This document shows, piece after piece, positions 21,405-46,830 of a DNA stretch of 64,000 bases. Every line of letters starts with the position of its first letter. Position 1 is the stretch's first letter. Where the stretch lies: the NCBI RefSeq assembly GCF_001831495.1, contig NZ_CP017689.1, forward strand, positions 2,542,001-2,606,000, written 5' to 3'. The position numbers and the translations under genes were made by a program. The notes under the pieces were generated by a model that saw only the letters and a list, made by a program, of their open reading frames with translations, was not told the origin of the DNA and made no database searches. This DNA comes from Thalassotalea crassostreae. Its GTDB lineage: Bacteria; Pseudomonadota; Gammaproteobacteria; Enterobacterales; Alteromonadaceae.

Positions 21405-22676
21405 TTATTTAAATGCTCGGCGAATAAAATCGCTTAAATATTTCGCTTTAAACATCATTCTAAGGTGACGTTTAGCGTGTTTTAGTCTCCCAGATGAAGC
21501 AGGAAAATAACCTTCTTTGCCATAAATTACGTATATGTTTTCCCGTTTATAACCTTTTAACACGGAGAATAGATGGCCAAATTTCTTTCCTGAGCGCTGA
21601 CGTTTTACAAATAAATCAATACAGCGTTTTACGTGTTGTTTCGCTTGTTTATTAATACGTATATTCAAGGGTGTTTTTTGATTAAACAAATATTCAATCG
21701 TATATAAACTGCTAAAAAGTGGATCGCTTTTATTACAGCGATTAAAGTGTTTTTCAATATCTTGCCAGTTCAATAGTGTATTTTGGTTTTCATGAAAACT
21801 TATAATTTGCTGTAAGTTTAATTGCTGGCGCCAATCGATAAATTGTTCATCGAAAGCTCGGTGAGACAATTCACTATGGGCGATAGATAGTACAACTTGA
21901 TGTTCTGGACTGAGTTGTAAAATCGTCAAAGGGTCTTTGTCATTTGATTTTGATGATTTCGATGTATTCTGATTTTCTGGAGTTAATGTTAATGGAGCTA
22001 ACGATAATGGAATCGCCTGTTGCCAAACCTCTTTAGTAGACAACACATCACTATGTGCCTTAGATAAAGCCCAACGATGCAATTCAACGCAACAATGTCC
22101 TTTGCCTTGTCGAAACAATGCAGGTGCATGGTGATGATTTACCGCATGGATATCCATATCATCTTGATTCGGTGCATAACCCTGCTGTTGTAAAACCTCA
22201 TTGGCTTTATCTTGCAGCTCTTCTGGTACGAGTAAATCAACATCGGTCATAAAGCGATTACTTATCGGGCTAAATACACCATTAAATAAGCTTGCGCCGC
22301 CCTTAAGCATGATCACCGGGATATTGGCACTTGATAGGTGCGTACAGGCAAATAGCGCTTCTTCCATAATGCCTTGGTTACGCTCAAAGAACATTTGCTC
22401 GAGTTCCGTTAAATAGGTAATCAACTCTTCATCAAGTTGTGCCCAAATACTAGAGTGTTCCAAACTGTTTTTTAGTGCGCCAATAAGGTAATGCTGATTG
22501 GCTAACATAATAAGCGGTAAACGCTTATCTTCATCTAATAAAGTAGCCAATTGTTCGGCGTTGTGTTGCTCTGGGTGAGTAAGCCACATGCCAAGGTCGA
22601 TGAAGGTTTGTCGTGTTACCTTGTTCATTTGCACTTTGTTTTTAGTGCTTTCATTGTTGTCGGTTGTTTGGCTCAT
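21405..22676 (-). CDS. Nucleotidyltransferase family protein (NTP_transf_5-like)
   Basis: A 423-residue cytosolic protein. The active-site pattern of this minimal nucleotidyltransferase group is visible: IPVIMLKGGASLFNGVFSPISNRFMTDVDLLVPEEL, giving K-G, then R, then the metal-binding DVD (near residue 148). HAVNHHHAPALFRQGKGHCCVELHRW gives the later conserved Glu-His segment. Members are commonly found next to HprK-like kinases and PqqD-like proteins in exopolysaccharide and lasso-peptide clusters. Here it lies 51 bases downstream of such a kinase gene. The substrate, peptide or sugar, is unknown. Confidence 0.8.
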   Translation of the reverse strand: MSQTTDNNESTKNKVQMNKVTRQTFIDLGMWLTHPEQHNAEQLATLLDEDKRLPLIMLANQHYLIGALKNSLEHSSIWAQLDEELITYLTELEQMFFERNQGIMEEALFACTHLSSANIPVIMLKGGASLFNGVFSPISNRFMTDVDLLVPEELQDKANEVLQQQGYAPNQDDMDIHAVNHHHAPALFRQGKGHCCVELHRWALSKAHSDVLSTKEVWQQAIPLSLAPLTLTPENQNTSKSSKSNDKDPLTILQLSPEHQVVLSIAHSELSHRAFDEQFIDWRQQLNLQQIISFHENQNTLLNWQDIEKHFNRCNKSDPLFSSLYTIEYLFNQKTPLNIRINKQAKQHVKRCIDLFVKRQRSGKKFGHLFSVLKGYKRENIYVIYGKEGYFPASSGRLKHAKRHLRMMFKAKYLSDFIRRAFK

Positions 22677-22727
22677 ATTTTTACTTCTATTTATTTAAAG
22701 CGCTGGCTATTTTGATTCGCCGCTTTT

Positions 22728-24020
22728 TTATTCGTGGCTATTTATAATCTTATCGATAAGCGAATGCGATTGTTCACTATTGGCATAAACAAGTTTTTCA
22801 GTATGAATGTGTTCGCAAAACCGGATCAGTTGTTCGGCTTTATCGGCAGTTAGTTCAATTCCGAGCTGATAACCGCCATGAGTTATTAGCTCTAACGTTG
22901 CCATTACCGATAACGGTTCACTTGAACCATTTGCCATTGCATCAAAACGCGGGCACAACATTAAGGTTTTAGTGTCAGTTTGTACTTGCTCTGCTTTTGT
23001 TATTTTAGCGATCTGTTGTGGCCAAATATATTTTAAAATTCGCCCGTCAACGCGATGCCATTCGGTTTGCTCGGTCAATTGAGGGTAAAGCATAGCAATA
23101 TGTGCCCAACTGCCCTGCTTAATTGCCATCGGCAGCGCTAAGGGCAATAACTTAAAGTTATCGTCAAACGCGATGATCTCATCAGAATATAGGGCATAGC
23201 CTTTTGTCGATAACTCACTGGCTAATGTTGATTTTCCGGCGCCTGAAACCCCAGGTAACAATATGGTAGTTGCGAGTTTCGGGTTGTGCTCGTTACGCTC
23301 TTGTGTGGGCTGGTTATTCACTAGCGCCGCGCCATGAAAACCAAAACAATAATCCGATTGTTGATACGCTAATATTTGTAAGCGATCTATTAATATTGGG
23401 ACTAATTGTAATTGCGTTAAGCCTTCTTCTACGGTTAATCCGTTTGATATCAGCGCGTAACCCTCATCAAAAACCATAATGTGCAATACAAAGTCTATTT
23501 CAGGATTTGCAAGGTTTGGGCTATTGGCGCCCTTGTTTTTTGAGCTGGTGTCTGAGCTAGTATCATTTGAGCTAACTTCTTGTGAGCTTAGAATGATAGG
23601 TTGTAGTAATTTAGTTAATTCGTTGTGTAAAAAGTCACAATCACTGGTGATGCAAAACAGTGAATTAGTCACTTGAACGACAAAACCCGTTTGCGGATTT
23701 TTTTGTTTATTATGTGGTTTTAATTCTGGGTATTTACCATCGGCATAGGTTTTTTGTTGTTGGTCACTTTGCTCAGTAAATAACAGTTTAATTTGTTTAG
23801 CTGCAGCGCTTATTTGATCACTTGGTAAGCCACTAACGTCTTGTACTTGCTTTATCGCAAGCTCAAACGTTAAACCTTCATCAAAGGCAAATAACAAGGC
23901 AATAGATAATGGCGAAAGCTTTAACAGCGATTTGGTTTGATTAGAAAAGACAATGCCATTGTCTTCTTCAAGCCACACGCTTAATTGCTGGTTATTTAAT
24001 TGAATACGTTGATACGGCAT
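22728..24020 (-). CDS. PqqD-like/HprK-like fusion kinase (copy 1)
   Basis: A 430-residue protein with two parts. Residues 1-95 resemble a PqqD peptide-binding domain: GIVFSNQTKSLLKLSPLSIALLFAFDEGLTFELAIKQVQ. Residues about 210-430 are an HPr-kinase-like domain with YCFGFHGAALV, Walker A LLPGVSGAGKSTLASEL, LYSDEIIAFD and LALPMAIKQGSW. HprK-like kinases of this type phosphorylate peptides or proteins; in lasso-peptide loci they modify a C-terminal Ser. The central linker is Ser-rich. It is a paralogue of 45087-46421. It precedes the nucleotidyltransferase and follows a small frame and secreted-protein genes, so it may modify one of those products, which is inference. Confidence 0.82.
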   Translation of the reverse strand: MPYQRIQLNNQQLSVWLEEDNGIVFSNQTKSLLKLSPLSIALLFAFDEGLTFELAIKQVQDVSGLPSDQISAAAKQIKLLFTEQSDQQQKTYADGKYPELKPHNKQKNPQTGFVVQVTNSLFCITSDCDFLHNELTKLLQPIILSSQEVSSNDTSSDTSSKNKGANSPNLANPEIDFVLHIMVFDEGYALISNGLTVEEGLTQLQLVPILIDRLQILAYQQSDYCFGFHGAALVNNQPTQERNEHNPKLATTILLPGVSGAGKSTLASELSTKGYALYSDEIIAFDDNFKLLPLALPMAIKQGSWAHIAMLYPQLTEQTEWHRVDGRILKYIWPQQIAKITKAEQVQTDTKTLMLCPRFDAMANGSSEPLSVMATLELITHGGYQLGIELTADKAEQLIRFCEHIHTEKLVYANSEQSHSLIDKIINSHE

Positions 24021-24131
24021 AAAGGGCGTTTGAGTTCGCTTGTATTAAATGATTATTGTATGTGCTTAGGTGTATGCTTAATGCTTGCTTTAGATTAACA
24101 AAGGCCTTTTGCTAATACTAGGTTTATAAGT

Positions 24132-24257
24132 TCAATTGTGTGGATACTCACTGTTTGTCATCGTGACAATTGCTTTGTGCATTGCAGGACTATACATTTG
24201 AATAGCTTGTGTTGTTTTTATTTGTTGCTGTTTATTTTCGTTGCTGTTTATTTTCAT
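24132..24257 (-). CDS. Possible 41-residue peptide directly upstream of the fusion kinase
   Basis: An ATG at 24257, 17 bases after the stop of the lipoprotein gene, opens a 41-codon frame ending at TGA 24132-24134. It begins MKINSNENKQQQIKTTQ and ends AIVTMTNSEYPHN, with a polar, Gln/Lys-rich first half and a more hydrophobic second half. The position matches that of the TAT-type micropeptide gene upstream of the second kinase (46488-46718). No strong ribosome site is visible, and I recognise no homologue, so it may be chance. Confidence 0.35.
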   Translation of the reverse strand: MKINSNENKQQQIKTTQAIQMYSPAMHKAIVTMTNSEYPHN

Positions 24258-24274
24258 AGCAAACTACCCACAAT

Positions 24275-24862
24275 CTAATTGCTATCAGACAATAGCACCT
24301 TGTTTGCTGCAACATTAATTTCGCTCGACAATAAACTGGCTTTGTTGTTAATTACCGCTTGTACCTTGAACGAAAGACGTTGGTTATTATCCAACTGATA
24401 TCGAAAAACATTGGTATTAGCGATAACAAAATCACTTTCCAATGTTGCTTCGCCACTTTCACCAATATACACACGGTATTCTGTTACGCCACTAATGCGC
24501 TGCCAACTCAGCAGCACACTTTGCTCATTTTGATACATCGAAAACCCAAATGGTGTGGCCACCGATTGATCAATGCTAAGCTCTTGCTCTTGATCTTTGT
24601 CTTGCTCTTGCTCTCGGTCTAGCTCTTGCTCAGAAACAGGCGTTTCAACAATTGTATCGTCGTCGGTATTGTCAGCTTTGTCATCGCTTGGTTGTTCAGG
24701 CGTAACCGTTTCTGATGCGCTATCTATTGCTGGGTTATCGCTGTTTTTACTGTTATTACTTGCGCTGCCGCCGCAGCCGTATATCAGTAGCATTACAAAC
24801 AATGTGATCACTGCTCGATTAACGTTTTTTATGCGCTGAAGCGGGTTAAAGTTTGTATTCAT
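24275..24862 (-). CDS. FN3-like surface lipoprotein (copy 1)
   Basis: A 195-residue lipoprotein. The signal peptide ends in lipobox LIYGC (Cys about 30). An acidic low-complexity linker follows, rich in Asp/Glu/Gln (EQELDREQEQDKDQEQEL), likely a spacer from the membrane. The C-terminal 90 residues resemble a fibronectin type III fold: VLLSWQRISGVTEYRVYIGES and FRYQLDNNQRLSFKVQAVINN. It is a paralogue of 31701-32198, which has the same lipobox, linker and FN3 order. It is cotranscribed with the GRRLT-tail protein upstream. Confidence 0.78.
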   Translation of the reverse strand: MNTNFNPLQRIKNVNRAVITLFVMLLIYGCGGSASNNSKNSDNPAIDSASETVTPEQPSDDKADNTDDDTIVETPVSEQELDREQEQDKDQEQELSIDQSVATPFGFSMYQNEQSVLLSWQRISGVTEYRVYIGESGEATLESDFVIANTNVFRYQLDNNQRLSFKVQAVINNKASLLSSEINVAANKVLLSDSN

Positions 24863-24922: not shown

Positions 24923-25975
24923 TTAGTCGTTTTCTAGCACTGTAACCGTTAAACGTCGACCGTCTTGTTGGTAATAAGCGCTTTCTTCTAAATTCAAAAA
25001 GTTCAAATTGCCGGACAATATCGTCGATACGCCCGTGTCCATATTGTGTTTAATATTGTGGTCTTGAATGGCCAAAAATCGTATCACCAAGGCATCGTTA
25101 ACTACTGTTTTAGTTCCTTGCGGTAGTATAAAGTTATAGCTAAAACGGGTGTACGAAGCTTTTTCGCCACGAAAGCTATAACCGGATAAACCATAGCCTT
25201 GTGCTTGATTATTGGTGAGAACCTCACCGCTAATAAAATCCGATTGATCGGTATTAACAAAAGCTCCGTCAATAACGCCATTATCGCTGTCATCTACATA
25301 CTGCGGATTACGGTGGCTGTATACAGAAGTGCCACAATTACTGTCGGCTTCATCGTAAATGTTATCTTCGTCGCTATCTTTAACGCAGTTGAATATATAA
25401 CTGCTTAGCGCGATATCGTCGTAGGCCATTGCAATGACATTCATAGTGTAAGGCGTTTGTTCTAATAACGGGCCATCAGTTACTAAGCTTGGGTTTTGCG
25501 TATCGCTTACATCAATGATTTCTACATAAGCAATAATTGGGCTTAAACGGCGCTGCGCTTCATCGGTTGCTGGCTCAAAATTAAAATTGCTGGCAAACAC
25601 TTTAATTGTTTCACCTTCGACTACGTCATTTATGCTAAGCACGCTGCTATGGTTGCCTGGTCCGGCGCTTTGATAATTTACCAAAATGGCGCACATATCA
25701 TTAGCTTGCCAAGTGTTGATACAATCGCTGACATTAAAACTTATACTATCGCCAATAAGTGCCGTTGTTTGAAAGTCATCTAGAGAAAGCGTTGTCGGCG
25801 CATCAAAGGTCAGCACCAATTGCTGGCTTTGCATGGCAGAGTCTTTTATGTCGGCGCGAAAAATAAAGTTACTACTCGACATTGATACCTGAGCAAACGC
25901 GGTGTTTATCGTTGCAATCGATACAACAATTGAAAAACCGTATATTAATGTTGATAGAAATAGATGTTTTTTCAT
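24923..25975 (-). CDS. Secreted protein with RRLSP core and GRRLT tail (copy 1)
   Basis: A 350-residue exported protein of unknown function. I start it at the ATG at 25975 (MKKHLFLSTLIYG), because the cleavable signal peptide is then of normal length and ends INTAFA. Residues 30-150 look like an all-beta domain with a TWQANDMCAILVNYQ strand. A conserved core follows, ATDEAQRRLSPIIAYVEI, then Cys-containing FNCVKDSDEDNIYDEAD (an Asp-rich, possibly calcium-binding loop). It ends VSTILSGNLNFLNLEESAYYQQDGRRLTV. The paralogue at 32208-33140 shares the core and tail. It follows the giant sulfatase gene by 30 bases. Confidence 0.75.
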   Translation of the reverse strand: MKKHLFLSTLIYGFSIVVSIATINTAFAQVSMSSSNFIFRADIKDSAMQSQQLVLTFDAPTTLSLDDFQTTALIGDSISFNVSDCINTWQANDMCAILVNYQSAGPGNHSSVLSINDVVEGETIKVFASNFNFEPATDEAQRRLSPIIAYVEIIDVSDTQNPSLVTDGPLLEQTPYTMNVIAMAYDDIALSSYIFNCVKDSDEDNIYDEADSNCGTSVYSHRNPQYVDDSDNGVIDGAFVNTDQSDFISGEVLTNNQAQGYGLSGYSFRGEKASYTRFSYNFILPQGTKTVVNDALVIRFLAIQDHNIKHNMDTGVSTILSGNLNFLNLEESAYYQQDGRRLTVTVLEND

Positions 25976-26005
25976 TTTATAAACCATTTACCTTTGAGCT
26001 AGCTA

Positions 26006-29000
26006 TTACTGAGCAAGGACAATTTTGCGGCCAAGATTATCAACGCCTGTGAACCCTAAACCACCGGGTATAACCAAGGATATCCACTGCTTATTGGTGT
26101 TATTATCCATTTGGTTTTTATAAAACAAGCGCAGCACCAACACGTTTTGTTGATAATCATCCGGCATAGTGAAATACACTTGATAATCGAATTGATTTGC
26201 TTGCTCTTCTCGAAAACTTATACTGCCGCTATTGACCGCAGTTTGCTCGGCGACGTCGCTTAGTAGTTTTGCGGTTAAGCTTTGAGCACAACTATCATCA
26301 ACGATATCGCAATCAAATAGCGCCATCGCTGTTTTATAACCATCTAAGTGGTAGCCTTGCACGCTAAAGCTTAATAAATAGCTGTTACCAGCAAGAAACT
26401 CTGTAGCGCTAGTATTGGAAAGTACGTCAGTAACAGTTAAGTCACTAACAGTAGGCGGTACTCGATGTTGTGCTTCTTGGCGTTTAGACATGCCTTGCGT
26501 TACAAAGGTGACAAATTTCGGGTGTTCGACCGAATCGGTATCCACTGAAATAACGCCTTGGGCTGGCGAGGTATTAGTTGCTGTTACGATAAAATCACAG
26601 TGTGTGTTTGGTAATAACGTTGGCAAGCTTATACAGTCGCTACTCGATTCACTGATTAAGCCATTGCTTAGCTCAAAACCGTCACTGTTAAATTCCATTA
26701 ACGCGATAGTTTCACTGGTGCTATTCATTAAACGAATGCTTTGCGAATTACCCAAAGCATTATTGGAATCATGGGTTAGCAAGATTGCGGTTGGGCTGGC
26801 GTATATTTGCTCGGCAACATAATTAGACTGTAATTGGTTTTGACTATTGTTGTCGATTGCATAATCACTGTTTTGGCGCTGCACATTGGTTACCGTTACC
26901 GACAACGATAAATTATTGGCAAAATATGGCGTACTCACCAATGCTTCACCTTGATTATTGGTGGTTACGGTAACACTTTGACGATAACTACCAATAAAAT
27001 TAATGGTCACTTGGGCGTTATTAATTGGCAATCCATATTCATCAACAATCAACACTTTTGCATCTACCCGCATATGACCGTAGTCATCGCTTACTTGCTG
27101 TAACTCAAAGTTACTAACCCAATGTTGTTGTTTTTGCCCGTAGGTGAGTGTTAGATACGGTTTATTAATGGCTTCAACGCTATCTATTCGACCAACAGAA
27201 TTGCCCTGCTCATTTAACACAAATGAGTATTCGCTAGGGCTAATTAACAGGTTGGTAAATTCATCGGTTACGTCGGCAATAAACCAACTGTTAGCGGCAG
27301 CAACTGTAGTGGCGATTGTGTCTGATAAGCTCGGCGAGTTATTCCAGGTTAATTCATCATCTTGCCAGTTGGTTGCACTGGTATGCACATTCACCGGTGC
27401 CACTAAGTCGGCGCTGTAAAAGCTCAATTGAGCTTGCGTAATAGACTCCATCACTTTATTTGAAACATCTGAAAAGTCGTATTTAAAAAATGCCGCGCGA
27501 GCAAAGTTAGAGCCACCTATTTGGCGTAATTGCAATGATGCCACGGTTGCATAAGTTTTATCTGGGTTATTTTGACTGATATAGGTATCGGAAATTGGCG
27601 TCAATATCAGCGAATTACTGACTTGCTCAATGCTTTGCTCTAATACGTTTACGTTTACTGTAAACACTGTCGAGTGATCACCGTTTGATGCTACAATATC
27701 AATACTGTTTGTACCAGCATTCGTTTGCCTTGGCATGCCTGTCACTGTGCCATTTGCATATACACTAAGCCATGCTGGACCAGATACTTTGCTAAATACT
27801 AAGCTGTCATTGTCGGTGTTGTTGACAAAACTGCGGACACTTTCGCTAAACAGCTCAAACATTGGCGCGGTAAAGTCGCTAATCGCTTGTGTTGACAAAG
27901 GTGTCTGCGAAGCGGTTATTGTTAACGTTGCACCTTGCTCACCTATGCCAGCTTCTTTTGAATGAAAAACTGGCCTATTGTCCATCGCAGATTTAATGGC
28001 AAAGGTGATAAACGTACGTTCATGGCCTTGTGCTGTTTGCGTTGCTTGCTTGGCTTGATTTACGTGATTGGTAACATCCAAAATTAAATTACCGCCGCTC
28101 GATACCGTAACGTCATCAATTTTGTTTTCAATCAGTAATTCAGGTTTGGTGTTCCAAGTCAGGTTCATTTCATCCCAATTACTGGCGGTTGCATACACTT
28201 CAACCGTTTGATTAACGTTATCGGATGCAATTGACAACTCTGCCAGATCAACCGTGCCATTAACCTTAGATAAGTCGAATTTAAAATATGGGATATATTG
28301 ATCAGATACTTCGCCGCTAATAAACACTCTTTCATCATCGCCCAAGCCTTTGCTTGTTGGTGCTGTTTCTTTAGCATGGTGGTCATCAATAACGTTTAAC
28401 GTAATGTTGGTGACTTTGTCGGCAATAGGGTCAGTTTGTTGATCAATACCCAGTGCCGTTACGCTGTATGGCGGTAACACGATTAGGTCCGGTAATTCTT
28501 GGTAAAGGCCGCCGTTTAACGCACCGGTAGAATAGACGAAGGTTTGCGGCGCAGCATGATATTGGCGCATTAGGTTAGTTTTAGGATCAAAGCCAGCTCG
28601 GCTGAGCACAACTTGGCTGCTTGATGTATTGACTAACACATAACGAGAACCATCATTTTGAATGCCTTGCCAACCATAGACTGCATCATAGGTTTGCTCA
28701 AGCGCAGTATAAGTTTGGCTATCGCTAATGGTTATCGGTACGATTTGCTGACTATTATTTAAGGTTTGGGCAAACGCTTGCATAATAATGCCCGACGCCG
28801 ACAGGCCAAACCTAGGTGCTGTTAAATCGCCCTGCCCGTGCGTTATAGAAAGACGATCAAATGGGTTGGCAAAAGCAAAACTTGCGGCTTTAGCACCGGT
28901 AATTAAGTTATGCATTAGTATCATATCGACTCGACCATCGAGCAAATAACTTTGAATTTGATTGGCATTAAACAATGCATGCGCCCAAGTATTTCTTGTT

Positions 29001-31330
29001 GGCCCTACGGTATCTTTGTAGTTAAACTCAGTGATCCAGATACGCTCATCAAGGGGTAAATTGTTTTCCGTTACGTAGGTTTGCCATTCAACAAATGGCT
29101 GGCTAAGCATAACTTCAACATTGCTTTGCTGATTAAACTCAGTCCACTTTAATTGTTGCTCTTCGTCTGTACCAAAGTAACTTTCACCTGAAGCAGCAAG
29201 CTCTGGTGTTAGACCACTGCGCGGGTAACTGTGTACAACTGCGATGTCTAATAAAGGACACGCAGCGCGAGCTTCGCTGTCCCAAGTAAGTTGTCGACTG
29301 CCAGATTTCATTGTCGATGGAAACGCTATTTTAACGTTTGGATATTGTTGTTTTATGGCGCTAACAAAGGTACAGGCATGTTGACCAAACTCAGTACCAT
29401 TAGCAAACGCAGAGGTATATTCCGCATCGTTTAAGTAAAACTCGTTGCCAAGCTCAATATAATTAATAGGCAAACTACTTGCATTGGCGATTGCTAAAGC
29501 GTCTAGCGTTTGTTGTAAGGTTTGGGTAAGTAAGTTTAGTACGTAAACTGGGGCAAACTGGTGGTTGGTATAGCCCACTTCAAAGTTTTCAAGCGTATAA
29601 TCACCGTTATCAAATACTTGCACGCCGTCGACCCAGCTAAACTTGGCGCCCACAGTCCAATCAAAATAATTAGCAATGGTGCCTCCAGGGTAGCGCATAA
29701 TATTGGCACCCGATTTACCAAATACTTCATTTACACCATCAACTAGCCAAGGCTGATCAGACAAGTGCTGCATCATATTTCCGTTATAGCCAAATAAGTT
29801 TTCACTTACATTGCGCGCTTCACCAAATTCGGCAACTTGAATAGGCTGAGCGACCGAAGGCACGGTCATAGACGCTAAACCTTTGCTATTTTGGCGTAAG
29901 GTATTTTGTAGCTCGATATGCAAACTGCTGTTTTGGTTGGCATCGAATATATTTTCACTTTCACCATTAATGACTTGCTCGTCGGGAAGATAATATAGTT
30001 CAGTGTACTCTAAAGTTTTATTATTAATATCCCACCATTCGGTATAACGATATTCGTCGGTGCGCAACGAATAACCCATGTTGCCATTGCGTTGAATTTG
30101 AGAAATAGCTCCTGTTCGAACGTGTTCGGCGTGCTGAGTAATCACCGCTAATTGTGACTGTCCGTCTATATCGGTTGGTTGCTCTAAGTTAGCCAGAGAT
30201 AAAATTGTTGGATAAATATCGGTAAGTTCAAATAAAGCATCGGTCACTAACGGCTCTTCGCCTGGAACTTTAATGATCATTGGCACATGGTTGGCATTTT
30301 CGAGTAAAGAATGTTTACCCCATTGACCTTGTTCGCCTAGATGAAAACCATGATCGCCCCACAATACCACTATAGTGTTTTCAGCTAAATTATTGGCCGT
30401 TAACGCACTCAGTAATTTTCCTACTTGTGCATCGATATAACTCACTGATGCGTAATAACCGTGAATTAATTCACGTTGTTGGCTTTCGGTTATGTTTGCC
30501 GGATCGTATAGCGTATCAACTTCATCTGCTCGATAATTATTCGAAAGTTCATTACCGCCCGAGTTTTCATAATTACTGTTATAACTAGCATTGGCATTGA
30601 TTGGGAGTTGCTTATAAAACGCCAAATCGAGCGATTCGCGATCGTATAGATCGTAATATGTTTTAGGGGCGTAAAACGGTAAGTGCGGTTTTTTAAAACC
30701 GACCGCTAAAAAGAACGGTTGATTAGTATCGGCCAAATCATTAATTGCGGTAACGCCAAGAGTGGCGATTTTACCGTCAACAAATAAGCTTTCATCTTGA
30801 TCAATCGATTTAAACGCTACGTTATTGTTGGCAGATTTGCTGTCTACCGTATTTGATGTAGACGCATCTTGATAGGCAATAGACCACGACACCGCATCAT
30901 GATCACTATCTACGTTACGAGAATCAAAAATTTTGCCGATTGCTTGAGTTTGATAACCGTGTTGTTTTAAGCGTTGCGGTAAGGTAACCACATTCGGCAC
31001 AAAGTCTCGCATAGTATCGTTTAAGCTCGTTAAGCCTGAGGTTTCAGGGCGCAATCCAGTAAGCAAACTTACACGAGACTGGCCACAAACCGGCCACTGA
31101 CTATAGGCACGATTAAACTGCACACCTTGTGAGGCTAACGCGTCTAAATTTGGTGCCGAAATTTCGCTATAGCCGTAACTTGGCAACGACGCTTTAAGAT
31201 CGTCTATCGCAATAAATAATATATTCGGGCGTTGCTCGGTATTTGCTGTTACCTGGGCATGAAAGCTCGACAAAAGCGTCAATAAAACGAGTGTGGCGAG
31301 GCGAGTAAAAGTCATCATATTATTGTTCAA
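26006..31330 (-). CDS. Secreted sulfatase/glycosidase fusion with two DNRLRE-type modules
   Basis: A 1774-residue protein with an N-terminal signal peptide. Residues about 34-490 are a type I sulfatase close to iduronate-2-sulfatase (NILFIAIDDLK, metal-binding Asp43/44; CGQSR at 82-86; GDHGFHLGEQGQWGK). The usual C-x-P-S-R has Gln in place of Pro. Residues about 500-960 look like a clan GH-A glycosidase, with RYPGGTIANYFDW, an ELGNEF acid/base (about 630) and WITEFNY nucleophile (about 767), nearest in pattern to GH79/GH39/GH51. Two DNRLRE-type modules (about 980-1130, 1243-1397) flank an Ig-like domain. The C-terminus shares the module-specific ending NLGRKIVLAQ. Likely cleaves or remodels a sulfated polysaccharide at the surface. 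Confidence 0.83.
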   Translation of the reverse strand: MNNNMMTFTRLATLVLLTLLSSFHAQVTANTEQRPNILFIAIDDLKASLPSYGYSEISAPNLDALASQGVQFNRAYSQWPVCGQSRVSLLTGLRPETSGLTSLNDTMRDFVPNVVTLPQRLKQHGYQTQAIGKIFDSRNVDSDHDAVSWSIAYQDASTSNTVDSKSANNNVAFKSIDQDESLFVDGKIATLGVTAINDLADTNQPFFLAVGFKKPHLPFYAPKTYYDLYDRESLDLAFYKQLPINANASYNSNYENSGGNELSNNYRADEVDTLYDPANITESQQRELIHGYYASVSYIDAQVGKLLSALTANNLAENTIVVLWGDHGFHLGEQGQWGKHSLLENANHVPMIIKVPGEEPLVTDALFELTDIYPTILSLANLEQPTDIDGQSQLAVITQHAEHVRTGAISQIQRNGNMGYSLRTDEYRYTEWWDINNKTLEYTELYYLPDEQVINGESENIFDANQNSSLHIELQNTLRQNSKGLASMTVPSVAQPIQVAEFGEARNVSENLFGYNGNMMQHLSDQPWLVDGVNEVFGKSGANIMRYPGGTIANYFDWTVGAKFSWVDGVQVFDNGDYTLENFEVGYTNHQFAPVYVLNLLTQTLQQTLDALAIANASSLPINYIELGNEFYLNDAEYTSAFANGTEFGQHACTFVSAIKQQYPNVKIAFPSTMKSGSRQLTWDSEARAACPLLDIAVVHSYPRSGLTPELAASGESYFGTDEEQQLKWTEFNQQSNVEVMLSQPFVEWQTYVTENNLPLDERIWITEFNYKDTVGPTRNTWAHALFNANQIQSYLLDGRVDMILMHNLITGAKAASFAFANPFDRLSITHGQGDLTAPRFGLSASGIIMQAFAQTLNNSQQIVPITISDSQTYTALEQTYDAVYGWQGIQNDGSRYVLVNTSSSQVVLSRAGFDPKTNLMRQYHAAPQTFVYSTGALNGGLYQELPDLIVLPPYSVTALGIDQQTDPIADKVTNITLNVIDDHHAKETAPTSKGLGDDERVFISGEVSDQYIPYFKFDLSKVNGTVDLAELSIASDNVNQTVEVYATASNWDEMNLTWNTKPELLIENKIDDVTVSSGGNLILDVTNHVNQAKQATQTAQGHERTFITFAIKSAMDNRPVFHSKEAGIGEQGATLTITASQTPLSTQAISDFTAPMFELFSESVRSFVNNTDNDSLVFSKVSGPAWLSVYANGTVTGMPRQTNAGTNSIDIVASNGDHSTVFTVNVNVLEQSIEQVSNSLILTPISDTYISQNNPDKTYATVASLQLRQIGGSNFARAAFFKYDFSDVSNKVMESITQAQLSFYSADLVAPVNVHTSATNWQDDELTWNNSPSLSDTIATTVAAANSWFIADVTDEFTNLLISPSEYSFVLNEQGNSVGRIDSVEAINKPYLTLTYGQKQQHWVSNFELQQVSDDYGHMRVDAKVLIVDEYGLPINNAQVTINFIGSYRQSVTVTTNNQGEALVSTPYFANNLSLSVTVTNVQRQNSDYAIDNNSQNQLQSNYVAEQIYASPTAILLTHDSNNALGNSQSIRLMNSTSETIALMEFNSDGFELSNGLISESSSDCISLPTLLPNTHCDFIVTATNTSPAQGVISVDTDSVEHPKFVTFVTQGMSKRQEAQHRVPPTVSDLTVTDVLSNTSATEFLAGNSYLLSFSVQGYHLDGYKTAMALFDCDIVDDSCAQSLTAKLLSDVAEQTAVNSGSISFREEQANQFDYQVYFTMPDDYQQNVLVLRLFYKNQMDNNTNKQWISLVIPGGLGFTGVDNLGRKIVLAQ

Positions 31331-31495: not shown

Positions 31496-31690
31496 CTAAA
31501 TAGTACTTGGACTTGCACCATCTGAGTTCATTGCATGCGATGTCTTAGGTGTCATTAACGCCGTTACCGCAACAGGTGTAACAACCGCTAATTTACCGTA
31601 CTTTTTAATGAAGTTTCTGCGAGAATCTAGTTTTTGCTCTTCTTGCTCTGTTTGTTCATTATGTGCGTTTTTTTCTGTTAAATTTTTCAT
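31496..31690 (-). CDS. TAT-signal micropeptide (copy 1, 64 residues)
   Basis: A 64-residue protein that is nearly all leader. A polar, acidic N-terminus (to about residue 23) precedes the twin-arginine motif SRRNFIKK, then a mildly hydrophobic KLAVVTPVAVTALM and a PKTSHA cleavage-like site, leaving only about eleven residues (MNSDGASPSTI). Its counterpart at 46488-46718 shares RRNFxKKxGKLAxVTPxAV. A GGATCAACC stretch before the ATG is a weak ribosome site. The product may be a Tat-exported peptide or a substrate of the fusion kinases; neither is shown. It is the last gene of a four-gene operon. Confidence 0.72.
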   Translation of the reverse strand: MKNLTEKNAHNEQTEQEEQKLDSRRNFIKKYGKLAVVTPVAVTALMTPKTSHAMNSDGASPSTI

Positions 31691-31700: not shown

Positions 31701-32198
31701 TTAGTCAGAAACTTTTACTTTGCTAAGATCAGCGCTTAGGGCATAACTTAACGGGCTTAATACAGCGCCGTTGTCGTATACGGCTTGAATCTTATAATTG
31801 TGAACACTTTCATTTAAATCTTTGTGAGTGTAACGAGTGCCTTGAGTTGTAAACATTTGGCTCGATGAATCCACACTATTAGTGTCACTGTAATAAATGT
31901 TGTAAGCAGTTGCGCCTCTAACAGAGCGCCACTTTAATTGAACATCATTATTATGTGTCGACATTTTGACTTTGGTTACTGTAGGCATCTCTAGATTTAC
32001 TACACCTAAGAGTTCAACGTTATCTATTTCAGTTTCGGCTTCGACTTCATTAGAGCTTTCATCGCTTAACTCTAAATTATTTACTGGCTTTAATGAGGCC
32101 GTAGGTGTTTGTTCAAGTTCGTTTAATTCTTGTGTATCACCGCCACAACCAGCCAAAATCGCCGCGCAAATTATATTTGTAATAATTAGTTTATTCAT
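31701..32198 (-). CDS. FN3-like surface lipoprotein (copy 2)
   Basis: A 165-residue lipoprotein with signal peptide MNKLIITNIICAAILAGC (lipobox LAGC), followed by an acidic spacer rich in Glu and Asn to about residue 68. The C-terminal part is FN3-like: VTKVKMSTHNNDVQLKWRSVRGATAYNIYYSD and NESVHNYKIQAVYDNG. It matches the lipoprotein at 24275-24862 in layout. An AGGGGAT ribosome site lies before the ATG. It is ten bases upstream of the micropeptide gene and ten bases after the GRRLT-tail gene, a tight operon. Confidence 0.8.
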   Translation of the reverse strand: MNKLIITNIICAAILAGCGGDTQELNELEQTPTASLKPVNNLELSDESSNEVEAETEIDNVELLGVVNLEMPTVTKVKMSTHNNDVQLKWRSVRGATAYNIYYSDTNSVDSSSQMFTTQGTRYTHKDLNESVHNYKIQAVYDNGAVLSPLSYALSADLSKVKVSD

Positions 32199-32207: not shown

Positions 32208-33140
32208 CTATTCGCCTTTCTCGCCTTTCGCTGTTAAACGACGACCGTCCGACTCATAATAACCATCATTACCTAAGCCCATAAAATTCAAGTTGCCAGA
32301 TAATACCGTGCTTACATTACGAGTTATTGCTACGGCACTGTCAGCTTTAGTTCGATGAAAAAATCTAAAAGCTAAATCGTGAGTACCAGAAACAAAGCTA
32401 CCATCGACTATCGCAAATTCACCTACAAATTGTTGATGTGTTGCTTGGTTTCCTGAATAAGAGTATTCACTGTCACCAGTGACGCCTGCACCAGTCAGCG
32501 CTGAGGTATTGTCGATTTTTTCGCTATCAAATTCACTCGTTGCACAATTATTATCAGATTCGTTTTCTAAACCACAATCATAAACTACAAGCTTACCTAA
32601 TATTTCTTCATAGGCGAGCACTGTCCATCGAAGATTATATGTTCCTGGCACTAAACTACCTGTTAAAGGTGTCGTGAAACCTGTATCAGAACTTGCAAAT
32701 ACTTCTGCTTTTTCAACAACAGGTGATAAACGTCTTTTTGCTTCATTTGCAGTTGATTGATTAAAATAGTTTGAAACAAACACCATGTGTTTAACCGAAT
32801 TACTGTCTTCTATTTCTATGCCAAAACCTTGTGGATCGAAGTCCACTTGGTCGTAAGTAATGGTAATTTGGCAATCTTCTTGGTCGTTAAGACTTGTACA
32901 GTCATTTGTTACTTGGAAATTAGATACATTATCGTCACGTACAAGATTTACTTTACTGGTCAAATCCATAACCGCACCAGACACATTTGTAACATCAATT
33001 ACTTTTACTACTTGCGCGATCTCGTCAGAACTCTGCATTTTTACGTAAACATTGTTGTCAGTTAATTCAATACTTGCCAATGCTGTAGAAGAAAAGCAAA
33101 GTAATGCCATAGCTGTTTTTTTAATTGTCATTAATTTCAT
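32208..33140 (-). CDS. Secreted protein with RRLSP core and GRRLT tail (copy 2)
   Basis: A 310-residue exported protein with signal peptide ending STALA. The first 120 residues look all-beta, with TNDCTSLNDQEDCQITITYDQV, a pattern also met in choice-of-anchor D domains. The shared core reads STANEAKRRLSPVVEKAEV and the tail NVSTVLSGNLNFMGLGNDGYYESDGRRLTA, nearly the same as copy 1 (24923-25975). Two Cys pairs (CTSLNDQEDC, DCGLENESDNNC) may be disulfides. An AAGGAACG ribosome site precedes the ATG. Function is unknown; conservation of the tail suggests sorting or recognition, which is inference. Confidence 0.75.
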   Translation of the reverse strand: MKLMTIKKTAMALLCFSSTALASIELTDNNVYVKMQSSDEIAQVVKVIDVTNVSGAVMDLTSKVNLVRDDNVSNFQVTNDCTSLNDQEDCQITITYDQVDFDPQGFGIEIEDSNSVKHMVFVSNYFNQSTANEAKRRLSPVVEKAEVFASSDTGFTTPLTGSLVPGTYNLRWTVLAYEEILGKLVVYDCGLENESDNNCATSEFDSEKIDNTSALTGAGVTGDSEYSYSGNQATHQQFVGEFAIVDGSFVSGTHDLAFRFFHRTKADSAVAITRNVSTVLSGNLNFMGLGNDGYYESDGRRLTAKGEKGE

Positions 33141-33151: not shown

Positions 33152-34672
33152 TTAATATTGCACAACAAGCTTGCGGCCAAGACCATCAGCAAAAACCATA
33201 CCTTGCCCACCGGTTGCAATCGCAGAAACATATTTAGAGTTACTTTCGCTATCAACTTCTGCGCGATAATAAACCCTCGCGACTAATGTATTATTAAAAG
33301 TCGGCATGCTATCTATGTCTGCTTTAACAGAGTATCCATTTGAATCAACTGTAACATTAGCCGGCGATTTGTATGAGCCAATACCTGTTACATTACCTAC
33401 ATCAGCCAAGTAATAACTGCCTATATTGCTACCATATCCAGCGGCACAATTTTCATCGGATGTATCAGCACAATCAAATAAAGCGACAATGGCTTGATAA
33501 CCTTCGTGGTAACCATCTAAAGTAAACGTTATATCATAAGGTTCACCTGCTGTTGGGGCTCCAGAAATCGGTGTTGTGGTATCGTTATCTACAACCTGAA
33601 AATCTAATAGGATTGGCGCAACACGGCGTTTAGCTTGATCGCTTGCAGCTTCATCAGCTGAATCTTGGATAAACACAGGGTAATATTTAATCTCATTTTC
33701 TGCATTAGGATAACGATATTTAAGTCGATAAATATCTCTTACAACATCACCTGCTGTTTGCTGGTTAACTTGTTGAATAAGGATAAAATTACATGAATCA
33801 CCTTGTGCTAACATTAAGCCGGTAGAACAGCTATTTAGCGACTTGTTGTATACCTCGTATAAAAAGTTAGCATCTTCGGGTTTATTACTATCTTGTCCAC
33901 GATATTCAACAACATCAGTACCTTCATTTGTCACCGTAACTAAAGCAGAACGAGCTTGACTACCGCCAGCATGATTAAGCAATAGGTGACTTGGCGTAAC
34001 GGCGATACCTCTGGTCTTGTAGTTACTGATTTCAATACTAGGTGCATTAGTTGCTAAGTCACCTGCGACATTTGTTGAAAAAACATCGATAACCTTAGTG
34101 CCACTATTAGTTAGCGCAAAATAATAATTCCCTGGACCAGTAATTAGAGAGGTAATATCAAGGTTGTAAATTGTACCTTGGAAATTATTAGCTGCTTTAG
34201 TTTGTTGTTTTATCGCAATAGTTAATTCTTCAGCACCGACAACTAAATTATGAGGATCGGCAAACGCTGTTCCATAGGTTATAGATGAACTATCAAAACC
34301 GTTTGCAGTTGTAAATGAACGAAGAGAAAGTGTGCCATCTTCGGCTGCTTGTCGAATTGCAAAAGACAAAGTAACTGTTGTATCACTTGATTTTGTAAAG
34401 TCATCAGCAAGCGTAAACTCAAACAAACCGTATTTTTCTGTGCTCAGCCCGTATTTTAACGTCGACATATATTTAGCGCCGTTACTATTAACAGTTTCTG
34501 CTGAGGCACTAATAAATGTATCTTTTGTTAAAGCTTGATTTTTGTCCATACTCATGATGTTGGTTGCATGAGCGTTAAACATAAATATTGGGATTATACT
34601 GAGTAGAAAAAACTTTAAACCGCGTGCAGAACGGCCTATTTTTCGAGCGTCTTTATCTCTGTTGGATTTCAT
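33152..34672 (-). CDS. Secreted DNRLRE-like surface protein heading the second module
   Basis: A 506-residue exported protein with an unusually long basic n-region before the signal core (KFFLLSIIPIFMFNAHA). Residues about 38-200 resemble a DNRLRE module (DTFISASAETVNSNG, YGLFEFTL, YNLDITSLITGPGNYYFALTN). Then comes a choice-of-anchor-like domain (THLLLNHAGGSQ type, with CSTGLMLAQGDSCNFIL), and the module-specific core QAKRRVAPILLDF with a VALFDCADTSDENC pair and ending GLGRKLVVQY. This C-terminal third matches that of the giant sulfatase. An AGGG ribosome site is 11 bases before the ATG. It probably sits on the surface; no enzymatic domain is seen. Confidence 0.75.
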   Translation of the reverse strand: MKSNRDKDARKIGRSARGLKFFLLSIIPIFMFNAHATNIMSMDKNQALTKDTFISASAETVNSNGAKYMSTLKYGLSTEKYGLFEFTLADDFTKSSDTTVTLSFAIRQAAEDGTLSLRSFTTANGFDSSSITYGTAFADPHNLVVGAEELTIAIKQQTKAANNFQGTIYNLDITSLITGPGNYYFALTNSGTKVIDVFSTNVAGDLATNAPSIEISNYKTRGIAVTPSHLLLNHAGGSQARSALVTVTNEGTDVVEYRGQDSNKPEDANFLYEVYNKSLNSCSTGLMLAQGDSCNFILIQQVNQQTAGDVVRDIYRLKYRYPNAENEIKYYPVFIQDSADEAASDQAKRRVAPILLDFQVVDNDTTTPISGAPTAGEPYDITFTLDGYHEGYQAIVALFDCADTSDENCAAGYGSNIGSYYLADVGNVTGIGSYKSPANVTVDSNGYSVKADIDSMPTFNNTLVARVYYRAEVDSESNSKYVSAIATGGQGMVFADGLGRKLVVQY

Positions 34673-39095: not shown

Positions 39096-39671
39096 TTAAA
39101 AGAAGCTCTGCTTCACCGTTATTATGTCCCCGGGAAACACTTCCGCATCGATAGCAACGTTGACCGACTTTTTGCTGGCATCCTTGGCACGAATAATAAA
39201 TATTTTATCCCTCGATGCGCGCTCGGTAAAACCGCCAGCTAATACCACCGCTTTATCAACCGTAAGTCCCGGCTGATATGGGTAGGCGCCAGACGATTTA
39301 ACCTGACCTTTAATGAAAAACGGGCGATATTGTTTGATCACCACTGATACATTCGGGTTGATAAAGTAGTCAGGTTTTAAGCCATCAACAATTTTAACTT
39401 CAAGCTCGCTTAAAGTAAGTCCTTTGACGCTAATTTCCCCTAAAAACGGAAAATTAATGCTGCCACGATTGTTGATGATAATTTCTTTTTGTAAATCTGG
39501 CTCGCCAAATACGCTAATGCTGATAGTATCACCAGAATCGAGTTGATAGGCTTGTGCAGCATTGGCTTGCTTAGCGATAAAAACAGTTGAAAAAAGCAGC
39601 GTCATAAATGACAGAGCAATGAACACTCTAGCCTTTGAAATTTGATGAAAAAAAGAATCTAGTCTAGTCAT
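39096..39671 (-). CDS. Small polysaccharide export protein (Wza-like, VpsN-type)
   Basis: A 191-residue periplasmic or outer-membrane OPX protein. A cleavable signal peptide ends KQANA. The Poly_export domain has YQLDSGDTISISVFGEPDLQKEIIINNRGSINFPFLGEISVKGLTLSELEVKI, and one SLBB domain has FFIKGQVKSSGAYPYQPGLTVDKAVVLAGGF. It lacks a lipobox and is half the length of Wza, so it probably works with the separate beta-barrel encoded just upstream. The next gene is the Wzc-like kinase. Confidence 0.9.
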   Translation of the reverse strand: MTRLDSFFHQISKARVFIALSFMTLLFSTVFIAKQANAAQAYQLDSGDTISISVFGEPDLQKEIIINNRGSINFPFLGEISVKGLTLSELEVKIVDGLKPDYFINPNVSVVIKQYRPFFIKGQVKSSGAYPYQPGLTVDKAVVLAGGFTERASRDKIFIIRAKDASKKSVNVAIDAEVFPGDIITVKQSFF

Positions 39672-44247: not shown

Positions 44248-44718
44248 CTATTTGGCACCGCCATCATTTTGCTCTTGATTATATTTGCTATAACCCCAGA
44301 GCATTTTTGCCACTTGCGTCGATAGCTCGAGCCATGGATTGGCTTGCTGCTCAGTAAAAAAGTCTAATTTAATGCCAATAAATAATAGCGTTTTAAATTT
44401 TGCCAAAGCAGCTTTGGCTTCAATTAGGTAAGGGTATCGCTCTCGATAAAAGTAAAACTCTTGTCCCGCGCCAATCTTTGCCGGAATTGCCAACAAGGCT
44501 AAACTGATTTGTTGTTTAAACATACAATCTTGTAATTGCATGATCACCGGGTAAATGGTCAAAGTTAAGTCGCAGCTCTTATTCCACAAATCGAGATTTT
44601 CATAAGCTAACTGTGGGTTGCTGTTAGCGGGGTTAACGGTATGGCTATTTGATTGATTGTCTGCAGCGTGATTGGTTTGAGGTTCAGCTTGGTTGGAGTG
44701 ATTATTTGAAGTATTCAT
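44248..44718 (-). CDS. Four-helix-bundle protein (S23/Avd-like fold)
   Basis: A 156-residue cytosolic protein. Residues 1-38 are Asn/Gln/Ser-rich and disordered. From about 39 a helical domain starts YENLDLWNKSCDLTLTIYPVIM, with the family hallmark near LALLAIPAKIGAGQEFYFYRERYPYLIEAKAALAKFKTLLFIG, where other members have a S-I-P-x-N-I-A-E-G box. This family (four helix bundle proteins, S23 relatives) often forms small homo-oligomers. Its role in polysaccharide loci is unclear to me. It is 158 bases upstream of the Gly-tail genes and 368 bases downstream of the second fusion kinase. Confidence 0.7.
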   Translation of the reverse strand: MNTSNNHSNQAEPQTNHAADNQSNSHTVNPANSNPQLAYENLDLWNKSCDLTLTIYPVIMQLQDCMFKQQISLALLAIPAKIGAGQEFYFYRERYPYLIEAKAALAKFKTLLFIGIKLDFFTEQQANPWLELSTQVAKMLWGYSKYNQEQNDGGAK

Positions 44719-45086: not shown

Positions 45087-46421
45087 TCACGACCAAAGTT
45101 TGGCGAGCCCAACCTTGGCCTGCTCACTGCTTTGATAGGTTAATTCGAATCGATGAATATCCAATAAGAAGTTGATCAATAAGTCTAATTTTTCTTTATC
45201 CATTTCAACACCAATTTGATAACCGCTTTCACTAAGCATGGCTAGGGTATCGATTATGGTCAATCGTTTTGCATCCGCGGCCTTATGAGTATCCGTTAAC
45301 GTTTGGTTAGCTTGAACAAATTTAGGGTTGACTAAAAGTACCTTGTTGCTGGTGATAGGCTGTTTTATCGATTGATTAAAGGCGAACTTTTCCGGCCACA
45401 CATATTTTAGTTTTCGACCATCAAGGCGTTTAAAGATACTGGCGCTTTCTAGCTCAGGATATTGATTTGCAAGATGTTGCCAACTGCCGCTTTTAATTGC
45501 CATCGGAAGGTTCAAACACAACAAGTTAAAGTGCTTATCAAGGGCGATGATTTCGTCAGAATATAACGGCGCTTTTGCGTTCGTCAGCTCTGCGCAAAGC
45601 GTAGACTTTCCTGCTCCTGACTTACCCGGTATAAGCAATGTGCCCTGCTCGGTTTGCACAGCAGCGCCATGGTAGCAAAAATAGTAGTCGGTACTTTGAA
45701 ATGCCAATATCTGCATGCGATCGATTAGCTCGGGCATAATTTCGTCAAAGCGTAAGTCTTGGGCAATCAAATGGTCATTGGAGAAAACAAAGAATTCGTC
45801 GTCGTTAAGATCGACATCAAGTTCAAAGTCTATTTCAATGTCTTCTGAAAGAGTTTGCTTTGACGTTGGCTTTCCGTTTGACTGTTCTATTGGTTTTAAA
45901 AGCGCTTTTACTTCATTAATAAATTTTGTGCAATTGCTGCTAATGGCAAACTTAGTGTTGGCAACTTGGCAAACAAATGCGCCTGGTTTAGCGAAGCGAC
46001 TGATTTCAGCTAAGGCATCTTCTAATAAATTAACGGCTGGCTTTTTGGTTTCTATAGTATCGCTTGGCTGTTCTGGTTCTTGCTCTTGTTTAAGCTCTTG
46101 TTTAAGCTCTTGTTTAAGCTCTTGTTTAAGTTCGGGATACCGTCCATCAAGATAACTTATCGATTCTTCATCGCTAACAAACAATTGTTTCACTTCGATA
46201 TAAAAGCTTCGCAACTGAGTTTCGGTTAAATTGCTTTGTTGTTTAATGTCGCTTATCGCACGTTGTTCAGTAAGACCTTCATCAATAGCGAGAACGAATG
46301 CCACTGATATTGACGGTAACTGATATAAACTTTGTTTGCGGTGATGAAACACCATGCCCTTTTCATTCTCGATATAGAGAGAAAGAAAATCACAATTGAG
46401 GGGGATGTTAATTAAGGACAT
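45087..46421 (-). CDS. PqqD-like/HprK-like fusion kinase (copy 2)
   Basis: A 444-residue paralogue of 22728-24020. Residues 1-90 are PqqD-like (KGMVFHHRKQSLYQLPSISVAFVLAIDEGLTEQRAISDIK). A linker follows with tandem ELKQ repeats near residues 98-115. The C-terminal HprK-like kinase has YYFCYHGAAV, Walker A LLIPGKSGAGKSTLCAEL, LYSDEIIALD and LNLPMAIKSGSWQHLA. The kinase acts, by analogy, on a Ser of a peptide or protein. It follows the TAT micropeptide gene by 66 bases. The 12-bp repeat inside it can vary in copy number without a frameshift. Confidence 0.82.
   Translation of the reverse strand: MSLINIPLNCDFLSLYIENEKGMVFHHRKQSLYQLPSISVAFVLAIDEGLTEQRAISDIKQQSNLTETQLRSFYIEVKQLFVSDEESISYLDGRYPELKQELKQELKQELKQEQEPEQPSDTIETKKPAVNLLEDALAEISRFAKPGAFVCQVANTKFAISSNCTKFINEVKALLKPIEQSNGKPTSKQTLSEDIEIDFELDVDLNDDEFFVFSNDHLIAQDLRFDEIMPELIDRMQILAFQSTDYYFCYHGAAVQTEQGTLLIPGKSGAGKSTLCAELTNAKAPLYSDEIIALDKHFNLLCLNLPMAIKSGSWQHLANQYPELESASIFKRLDGRKLKYVWPEKFAFNQSIKQPITSNKVLLVNPKFVQANQTLTDTHKAADAKRLTIIDTLAMLSESGYQIGVEMDKEKLDLLINFLLDIHRFELTYQSSEQAKVGLAKLWS
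46083..46130. repeat. 12-bp tandem repeat inside the kinase linker
   Basis: Four units of CTCTTGTTTAAG (the last ending TTTAAG then TTCGGG), encoding QELK repeats in frame. It lies between the PqqD-like and kinase domains. Confidence 0.85.
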
Positions 46422-46487
46422 ATATTACCGATTAGAGATTAGTCGGTTAAGAATAGATAAATTTAGGTGTTACTAGAACATTAGCGG

Positions 46488-46718
46488 TTAAAAACTGTTT
46501 TTAGATGCAGGTTCAGCCTTGCAGTGCTTATTGTTCTGCTGAGGTTTACATGATTTAGGTGCAGCCGAGGTTTTCGGGCTCATTAAAGCGGTTACAGCCA
46601 GCGGCGTAACAGCGGCAAGCTTACCGAATTTTTTCATAAAATTACGACGAGTTTCTTCATGTGACAACTCTTGATTATCATCATTATTTAATTCTACGTT
46701 ATCTTTATTACTAGCCAT
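46488..46718 (-). CDS. TAT-signal micropeptide (copy 2, 76 residues)
   Basis: A 76-residue protein counted from the ATG at 46718. A TTG four codons upstream also opens the frame, but GGGTGAC is a better ribosome site for the ATG. A polar acidic N-terminus is followed by TRRNFMKKFGKL, a twin-arginine motif, and AAVTPLAVTALM, then PKTSAA as a likely cleavage point. The remaining 23 residues are hydrophilic (Lys, Asn, Gln) with two Cys and end PASKNSF. It shares RRNFxKKxGKLAxVTPxAV with copy 1. It heads an operon with the fusion kinase, so it may be its substrate, which is inference. Confidence 0.75.
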   Translation of the reverse strand: MASNKDNVELNNDDNQELSHEETRRNFMKKFGKLAAVTPLAVTALMSPKTSAAPKSCKPQQNNKHCKAEPASKNSF

Positions 46719-46801
46719 TATGTCACCCAAAGTACTGCGAACTTCAATAAGAGTGTTTGATTTACTCTAATGCCGAACCTTTCGTTCAGCCTATTGACGA
46801 G

Positions 46802-46830
46802 ATAATAACCTGTTAGTAGTTATGACACAA
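46802..46830 (-). promoter_or_regulatory. Candidate sigma-70 promoter of the micropeptide-kinase operon
   Basis: On the minus strand TTGTGT (46830-46825) and TATTAT (46807-46802) are separated by 17 bases, 85 bases before the start. Downstream in the leader a 7-bp hairpin with a GAAAG loop (46772-46790) follows, without a T-run. Confidence 0.45.

Follow-up and report, generated by a model that had tools for sequence, protein, structure and literature searches.

The window analysed here is the whole of a 64,000-nt stretch of the Thalassotalea crassostreae genome (NZ_CP017689.1, positions 2,542,001-2,606,000; genome G000). It carries two paralogous kinases, each with a PqqD-like domain of the RRE type found in ribosomally synthesized and post-translationally modified peptide (RiPP) pathways, together with a nucleotidyltransferase and two micropeptides that begin with a twin-arginine signal of the translocation (Tat) type. 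The genes on which the analysis centres are:

46488..46718, minus strand: TatPepA, a 76-aa twin-arginine micropeptide of the A type (core with two Cys), immediately upstream of KIN2 (protein search and alignments)
45087..46421, minus strand: KIN2, RRE (PqqD-like)-HprK fused kinase, 444 aa (AlphaFold model, kinase-fold and N-terminal-domain matches)
31496..31690, minus strand: TatPepB, a 64-aa twin-arginine micropeptide of the B type, predicted mature part MNSDGASPSTI (leader family)
22728..24020, minus strand: KIN1, RRE-HprK fused kinase, 430 aa (paralogue of KIN2)
21405..22676, minus strand: NT5, nucleotidyltransferase of the NTP_transf_5 family (PF14907), in third place in the cassette, adjoining KIN1 (PF14907 E 8.1e-28)

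The original prediction, made from the bare sequence, had described two paralogous kinases at these positions, each fusing a PqqD-like domain to an HprK-like kinase, and both points are borne out. KIN1 and KIN2 are 44% and 39% identical over two segments. The AlphaFold model of KIN2 has a pLDDT of 87.6; residues 1-100, modelled alone, find RiPP RRE domains as their best matches, while the remainder of the chain matches PEPCK and HprK. Both paralogues are supported, at the level of predicted structure, as fusions of an RRE/PqqD domain with an HprK-type kinase. The catalytic-type residues are intact and invariant in all 51 aligned kinases, KIN1 and KIN2 included. A sequence-profile search of solved structures with the kinase returned weak P-loop matches only, which included HprK entries (E 0.0057 for the best of these), and a scan of viral contigs gave no relatives. 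Long linker inserts are present in the kinases of loci L039, L040, L042 and L043.

TatPepA lies where a Tat-type micropeptide had been predicted upstream of the second kinase copy, and TatPepB is a further member of the same leader family. Searching 5.8 billion proteins with TatPepA gave 22 matches, counting itself. When its relatives are aligned with the peptides of the collected loci (46 distinct peptides, length range about 57-95 aa), they have in common the leader RRxFxxKFGKLAxVTPxAVTALMSPxTSxA, in which the RR, the K of GK, one A and the T and P of VTP are invariant in 46/46 and the F of RRxF is present in 45. Two Ser columns are likewise invariant: one, the Ser of TSxA, falls within the signal region, and the other (46/46 overall, 9/9 among B-type peptides) becomes the third residue of the predicted core if the chain is cut behind the Ala of TSxA, a site predicted by eye. 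Per-site differences are 0.76 for synonymous and 0.21 for non-synonymous sites (27 peptides with DNA, 351 pairs). No model of NCBIfam 2026 or Pfam 2025 scores above its cutoff for either window peptide, a plasmid search with TatPepB gave no match, and the genome carries TatC. The 41-codon frame upstream of KIN1 (24132-24257), proposed earlier as a second small peptide, was considered as a precursor and dropped: because it has no twin arginine, and its tblastn matches across all loci then collected are confined to pieces of this genome, it is, on sequence grounds, probably not a gene.

Do the fused kinases occur without the micropeptide? Such homologues, named in the original prediction as evidence that would speak against it, were not found. 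The scans for peptide, kinase and GRRLT-tail proteins each covered 196 genomes of the home family, the draws being assumed identical (non-matching genomes are partly listed). A full-length fused kinase is present in 13 of the 196, and the strong peptide matches fall in the same 13; adding G002, G006, G008 and G010, every fused-kinase genome has the peptide (17/17). HprK-like matches extend to 83 of the 196 genomes, 70 of which have unfused kinases only. The same division is seen within genus g31, where G044, G118 and G148 have both fused kinase and peptide, whereas G175, G194, G212 and G228 have unfused kinases only and are not among the peptide genomes. An order-wide peptide scan gave matches in 4/295 genomes, all of the home family. 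The peptide stands directly before the fused kinase in nine of the 17 genomes (G000 copy 2, G002, G013, G030, G044, G084, G118, G148 and G150), 0.9 kb before it in G010 and after the nucleotidyltransferase in G045. In G003, a 78% complete draft, two peptides are present and the kinase search found none. Two weak matches were left out of the counts: one in G229 (E 7.5e-4, a 271-aa frame), from which no peptide ORF (open reading frame) was obtained, and one to the peptide model in the Thermoguttaceae locus L087 (frames of 116-171 aa). The micropeptide is a real gene family, and it is linked to the kinase.

The nucleotidyltransferase predicted beside one of the kinases is indeed a PF14907 protein next to KIN1. 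Its residues D145, D147 and E198 are invariant in 15 aligned sequences; at the sequence level, its profile found no match among solved structures. The commonest compact gene order is peptide, kinase, nucleotidyltransferase (L032, L034, L036, L038 (= L080), L074-L077, L079, L081, L083 and L086), and L041 (= L082) has the order kinase, nucleotidyltransferase, peptide. Loci L074-L086 were found through the peptide, so that they are evidence on gene order and are excluded from the claim that kinases have peptides. The ORF maps of these three-gene cassettes show no additional recurrent gene, the flanking ORFs being domain-scanned in part.

Unfused relatives place the system in a wider setting, the HPr-rel-A cassettes (TIGR04352/TIGR04353). 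We used the best-scoring 44 of 76 unfused matches in the family (L088-L091 and L093-L132) and the 30 best TIGR04352 matches of a phylum-wide sample (L133-L162, of which L150 belongs to the home family); in that sample, 71 of 349 genomes match TIGR04352 at E 1e-15 or better, 57 of them above cutoff. A rule for Tat-like genes, composed after the first loci had been inspected, scored 68/74 loci in its raw form (43/44 family, 25/30 phylum), against 27/310 among other ORFs of 100-300 aa in the same loci. Its errors were a spurious printed row at L115 (the true gene is recognised otherwise), a spurious gene at L149 and a gene missed at L139, which leaves adjusted counts of 43/44 and about 25/30. The 43 family loci have a gene with a twin-arginine start, 169-287 aa long, just upstream of the kinase on the same strand; the exception is L117, with a short kinase frame (206 aa). 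On these counts, HPr-rel-A cassettes seem in general to be headed by a Tat-type gene, and the window system looks like a compact, fused branch whose Tat-type gene is the micropeptide.

Between Tat-type gene and kinase, most of these loci (not L112 and L121) have a small PqqD-sized frame. Four such frames were tested against TIGR04353: L091 scores 35.9 bits (cutoff 35) and L090 24.6, and L088 and L089 give no match. The L088 kinase scores 310.1 bits with TIGR04352, and a PF14907 nucleotidyltransferase is also present at that locus. Against the peptide model, the Tat-type proteins that precede unfused kinases score weakly (E 2e-4 to 2e-3), and they resemble the micropeptides little past the N-terminus; for this reason homology between micropeptide and Tat-type protein is not claimed. 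A common P-x-x-x-T leader motif was likewise given up, being present in 45/46 fused-system peptides and, with a looser pattern, in 8/14 hand-picked unfused ones. In the home family the mature part of the unfused Tat-type proteins often starts Ser/Gly-rich, e.g. CSVSGAMSGNLS; these proteins are candidate substrates of a kinase that is widespread.

TatPepB is the last gene of an operon for surface proteins, to which a second operon copy in the window (copy A) is related:

33152..34672, minus strand: exported DNRLRE (CBM96-like) protein with a C-terminal LGRKLV tail, first gene of operon B (NF033679 E 5.2e-05, 23.4 bits, cutoff 34)
32208..33140, minus strand: GRRLT-tail exported protein, operon B (alignment with homologues)
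31701..32198, minus strand: FN3-like lipoprotein, operon B, 10 bp before TatPepB (alignment with copy A)
26006..31330, minus strand: sulfatase with CBM96/DNRLRE repeats and LGRK tail, head of operon copy A (PF00884 E 1.3e-42; PF24517 E 1.3e-31)
24923..25987, minus strand: GRRLT-tail protein, copy A (alignment with the B copy)
24275..24862, minus strand: FN3 lipoprotein, copy A (fn3 E 0.0029, under the gathering score; alignment with the B copy)

The order of surface protein, GRRLT protein, FN3 lipoprotein and tiny peptide had been read as occurring twice in the window. It is a real module, found at nine loci in four genomes (the window, L034, L042, L092, L173, L174, L176, L177 and L178), but copy A has no conserved peptide, and its "large surface protein" turns out to be a sulfatase with CBM96/DNRLRE repeats. 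Homologues of 33152-34672 occupy the same operon place in L034, L042, L092, L173, L174 and L176-L178. Each of the nine B-type peptides starts 0-17 bp past the FN3 lipoprotein gene, preceded in order by the DNRLRE/LGRK-tail and GRRLT proteins, and all nine predicted mature parts have 10-14 residues, Ser at the third position and a terminal Ile (for example MNSDTGPSDII). Among 11 full-length GRRLT copies, the peptide is missing at two, the sulfatase-type copies of the window and of L034, where an operon related to copy A lies. Full-length GRRLT proteins occur in just 4/203 genomes, each of which also has the fused kinase and the peptide, so that the peptide-kinase system can do without the surface proteins. 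In G010 (L042, L173-L178) there are seven peptides and one fused-kinase locus: six peptides lie within DNRLRE-GRRLT-FN3 operons, five of these near sulfatase-like genes (BLAST to the window sulfatase and by eye), and the seventh adjoins GGGN and Wzy-like genes.

Two further exported proteins share a tail and are neighbours of A-type micropeptides in polysaccharide loci:

42773-43378, minus strand: GGGN-tail exported protein
43475-44089, minus strand: GGGN-tail exported protein

The GGGN tail was found in 12 ORFs across the window and its relatives. GGGN proteins also occur in L035, L036, L037, L039, L043, L074, L075, L078 and L085, directly after the peptide in L035, L037, L043, L078 and L085. 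Their length is roughly 120-230 aa; most begin with what resembles a signal sequence, and the Gly-rich tail at the C-terminus hardly varies, e.g. PPIPPGTLGGGNGNGGPG...S.N; their genes mostly adjoin an O-antigen-ligase-like gene, and the copy tested had no Pfam match at 0.001. Between KIN2 and the GGGN genes lies a protein of the 23S rRNA intervening-sequence family (44248-44718, PF05635), with similar genes in L033, L037 and L042. Two Wza/Wzc-like export sets (15188-19103 and 36791-39671; Pfam for 17922, 39096 and 36791, BLAST and reading for 15188) are apparently two polysaccharide systems side by side. A palindrome resembling repetitive extragenic palindromic (REP) elements, GATCCTGAAACGAGTTCAGGA, forms an array of period 56 with about 5.6 copies (sites 46938-47249 and 19454-19476), and the kinase frame of L039, which stays open, contains a related copy (L039:10050-10071). 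The same window has an IS200-like Y1 transposase (54903-55595, PF01797), possibly a REP-associated transposase.

We consider it probable that these genes form a RiPP-like phosphopeptide system, in which the leader is both RRE ligand and Tat-type export signal and the kinase phosphorylates Ser3 of the core. The support computed here consists of the RRE and kinase folds, the catalytic-type residues, the genomic linkage and the conservation of leader and Ser; we infer the identity of the substrate, the phosphorylation and its site, the order of events, the Tat route, the chemistry of NT5 and the partner binding as follows. The leader of the 57-95 aa precursor would bind the RRE and, as the RRE is fused to the kinase, this binding would set the peptide core at the kinase active site, where the invariant Ser third after the cleavage-site Ala would be phosphorylated. 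The nucleotidyltransferase would next modify the phosphate with a hexose or nucleotidyl group. A leader that is at once an export signal would need shielding ahead of modification; binding by the kinase may provide it, which would make the RRE-kinase shield and enzyme in one; the modified peptide would then be exported by Tat and trimmed by signal peptidase, and a short product (10-14 aa in the B type) would stay in the periplasm or on the surface. The A type, with its two Cys, may serve polysaccharide-export loci, and the B type, with its terminal Ile, the DNRLRE/GRRLT/FN3-lipoprotein assemblies.

Several observations weigh against this mechanism. The window peptides score 11.5 and 13.7 bits with the twin-arginine model TIGR01409, under its cutoff of 16.7; the [Y/W]xxP motif is absent from the peptide leader; A-type peptides have Pro directly past the predicted cleavage site; KIN2 has no adjacent nucleotidyltransferase; in 6/17 genomes (G004-G009) the peptide lies more than 7 kb from the kinase or on another contig; and the two Ser columns are equally invariant. 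As one of these columns falls in the signal region, the kinase might instead mark the Tat signal, for example at the Ser of TSxA, as an export switch for a regulated secreted peptide that is no RiPP. The authors of a survey of MNIO-modified peptides speculate that a Sec signal is kept hidden by a partner protein pending modification (PMC12452194). Nevertheless, the other invariant Ser would sit, given the predicted cleavage site, at the position where LppK phosphorylates its substrates (PMC13381572), and the cassette nucleotidyltransferase suggests a durable modification; we regard an export switch as improbable, if the best placed of the alternatives.

Slightly less probable still is that kinase and nucleotidyltransferase act on a sugar or lipid-linked polysaccharide intermediate, with the micropeptide a mere neighbour or regulator. 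Many copies do lie within polysaccharide loci (the window; L035-L039, L074 and L075), and the kinase core also resembles PEPCK, whose fold has small molecules among its substrates. On the other hand, BLASTP against the window polysaccharide genes (1e-4) found no polysaccharide-gene neighbours of the cassettes in L032, L076, L077 and L081 (in L076 and L077 about 0.4 and 1.3 kb upstream were covered), so that a polysaccharide is probably not the obligatory substrate. The RRE-like domain is a peptide-binding fold, peptide and fused kinase occur in the same 13/196 genomes, and five G010 peptides are scattered, distant from its polysaccharide and kinase loci. Least probable is that the secreted DNRLRE, GRRLT and FN3 proteins or the GGGN-tail proteins are the true targets of modification, and that the micropeptide serves as an adaptor or as a tag secreted alongside: the tight spacing of B-type peptides behind the FN3 lipoprotein and the adjacency of GGGN proteins to A-type peptides would fit, but full-length GRRLT proteins are confined to 4/203 genomes against 17 with fused kinase and peptide, and the peptide is the likelier substrate. 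Of the original proposal, a modification system acting on exported components, the core is strengthened by the RRE-like domain, the strict co-occurrence of peptide and fused kinase and the peptides in secreted-protein operons, whereas neither the polysaccharide locus nor the surface proteins proved obligatory.

The nearest experimentally tested analogue of the phosphopeptide system is the pathway of linear polyphosphorylated peptides (LPP) of Bacillota, to which LPPs are said to be restricted. There, LppK adds several phosphates to Ser3 of a core starting AQS; in the host used for testing, LppN made no visible difference; and the clusters are often near capsule loci (PMC13381572). Both systems combine an RRE, an HprK-like kinase and an NTP transferase (here PF14907, after KIN1 and in relatives) with a short precursor whose leader is conserved and whose core varies, and both frequently sit in capsule or polysaccharide loci; the third-place Ser of the LPP core would have its counterpart here if the cleavage site predicted by eye is right. 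The LPP RRE is a discrete protein, whereas ours is fused to the kinase; the LPP leader motif is YxxPxVLxHQxIxFETxxS, whereas the 46 aligned peptides have a Tat-type leader; LPP clusters include a SipW-like peptidase and an MsbA-like transporter, whereas no extra recurrent gene was seen in our ORF maps, with flanks partly domain-scanned; and our precursors belong to Gammaproteobacteria and are dispersed over the genome, some tied to surface-protein operons. HPr-rel-A cassettes likewise unite an HprK-related kinase, a PqqD-type domain and a PF14907 nucleotidyltransferase behind a Tat-type gene. Here, however, kinase and PqqD are fused, the two kinases score 41 and 39.1 bits, far under the 200-bit cutoff of TIGR04352, TIGR04353 (the separate PqqD-like protein) is not among their NCBIfam matches, and the product of the Tat-type gene has about 57-95 aa, where HPr-rel-A cassettes mostly have proteins of 160-290 aa.

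Phosphorylated lasso peptides such as paeninodin and pseudomycoidin share the HprK-type Ser kinase; in pseudomycoidin, the addition of one or two hexoses to phospho-Ser depends on the nucleotidyltransferase-like PsmN, directly or via a host enzyme (PMC9266682). Their Ser is C-terminal, whereas our candidate is near the core N-terminus, and a Pfam scan of the assigned window genes at 21405-46718 (excluding 31701-32198 and 43475-44089) found no lasso macrolactam cyclase or B2 protease. Bufferins and other MNIO-modified RiPPs also have an N-terminal export signal on the precursor, with partner masking proposed; theirs is Sec with oxidative chemistry, mostly on Cys, and ours Tat-type with a kinase (PMC12452194). 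What characterizes a RiPP with an RRE is found here, namely an RRE-fold domain and a conserved leader, variable core and shared enzyme (46-row alignment; seven peptides and one fused-kinase locus in G010). The system seems to work like LPP, yet lacks defining features both of LPP (a discrete RRE, its leader) and of HPr-rel-A. Judging by titles and the starts of abstracts, none of the open-access papers listed in our searches, several of which gave just the top 10-20 of many, deals with a Tat-signal precursor for HprK-related kinases, and a search on the system's names surfaced a single paper, with no more than the phrase "PqqD family peptide".

The analysis offers a concrete candidate substrate for cassettes of HprK-related kinase, PqqD-type protein and nucleotidyltransferase, and it suggests that a modified peptide may, unusually, have a Tat signal for its leader. 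As the predicted substrates are short, conserved and genetically simple, the question of which substrate the kinase modifies reduces to a two-plasmid experiment. The peptide genes scattered beside genes for surface sugar-binding proteins hint at a little-studied decoration of the cell surface, and the sulfatase-like genes around the scattered operons of peptide and surface proteins suggest an involvement in the handling of sulfated polysaccharides. A wider reading, which we hold only tentatively and think rather unlikely as a whole, is that one kinase labels many micropeptides genome-wide and that peptides of 10-14 aa bearing phospho-Ser or sugar-phospho-Ser are delivered to the surface by Tat signals that are RRE leaders at the same time. 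If so, each peptide type would be matched to its own operon, for polysaccharide export or for DNRLRE/GRRLT/FN3 carbohydrate-binding assemblies within sulfatase clusters, and the peptide would tie the polysaccharide to the assembly; the HPr-rel-A systems, widespread and little studied, would then without exception modify by phosphorylation in a Tat-coupled way, each on the product of the gene that precedes it.

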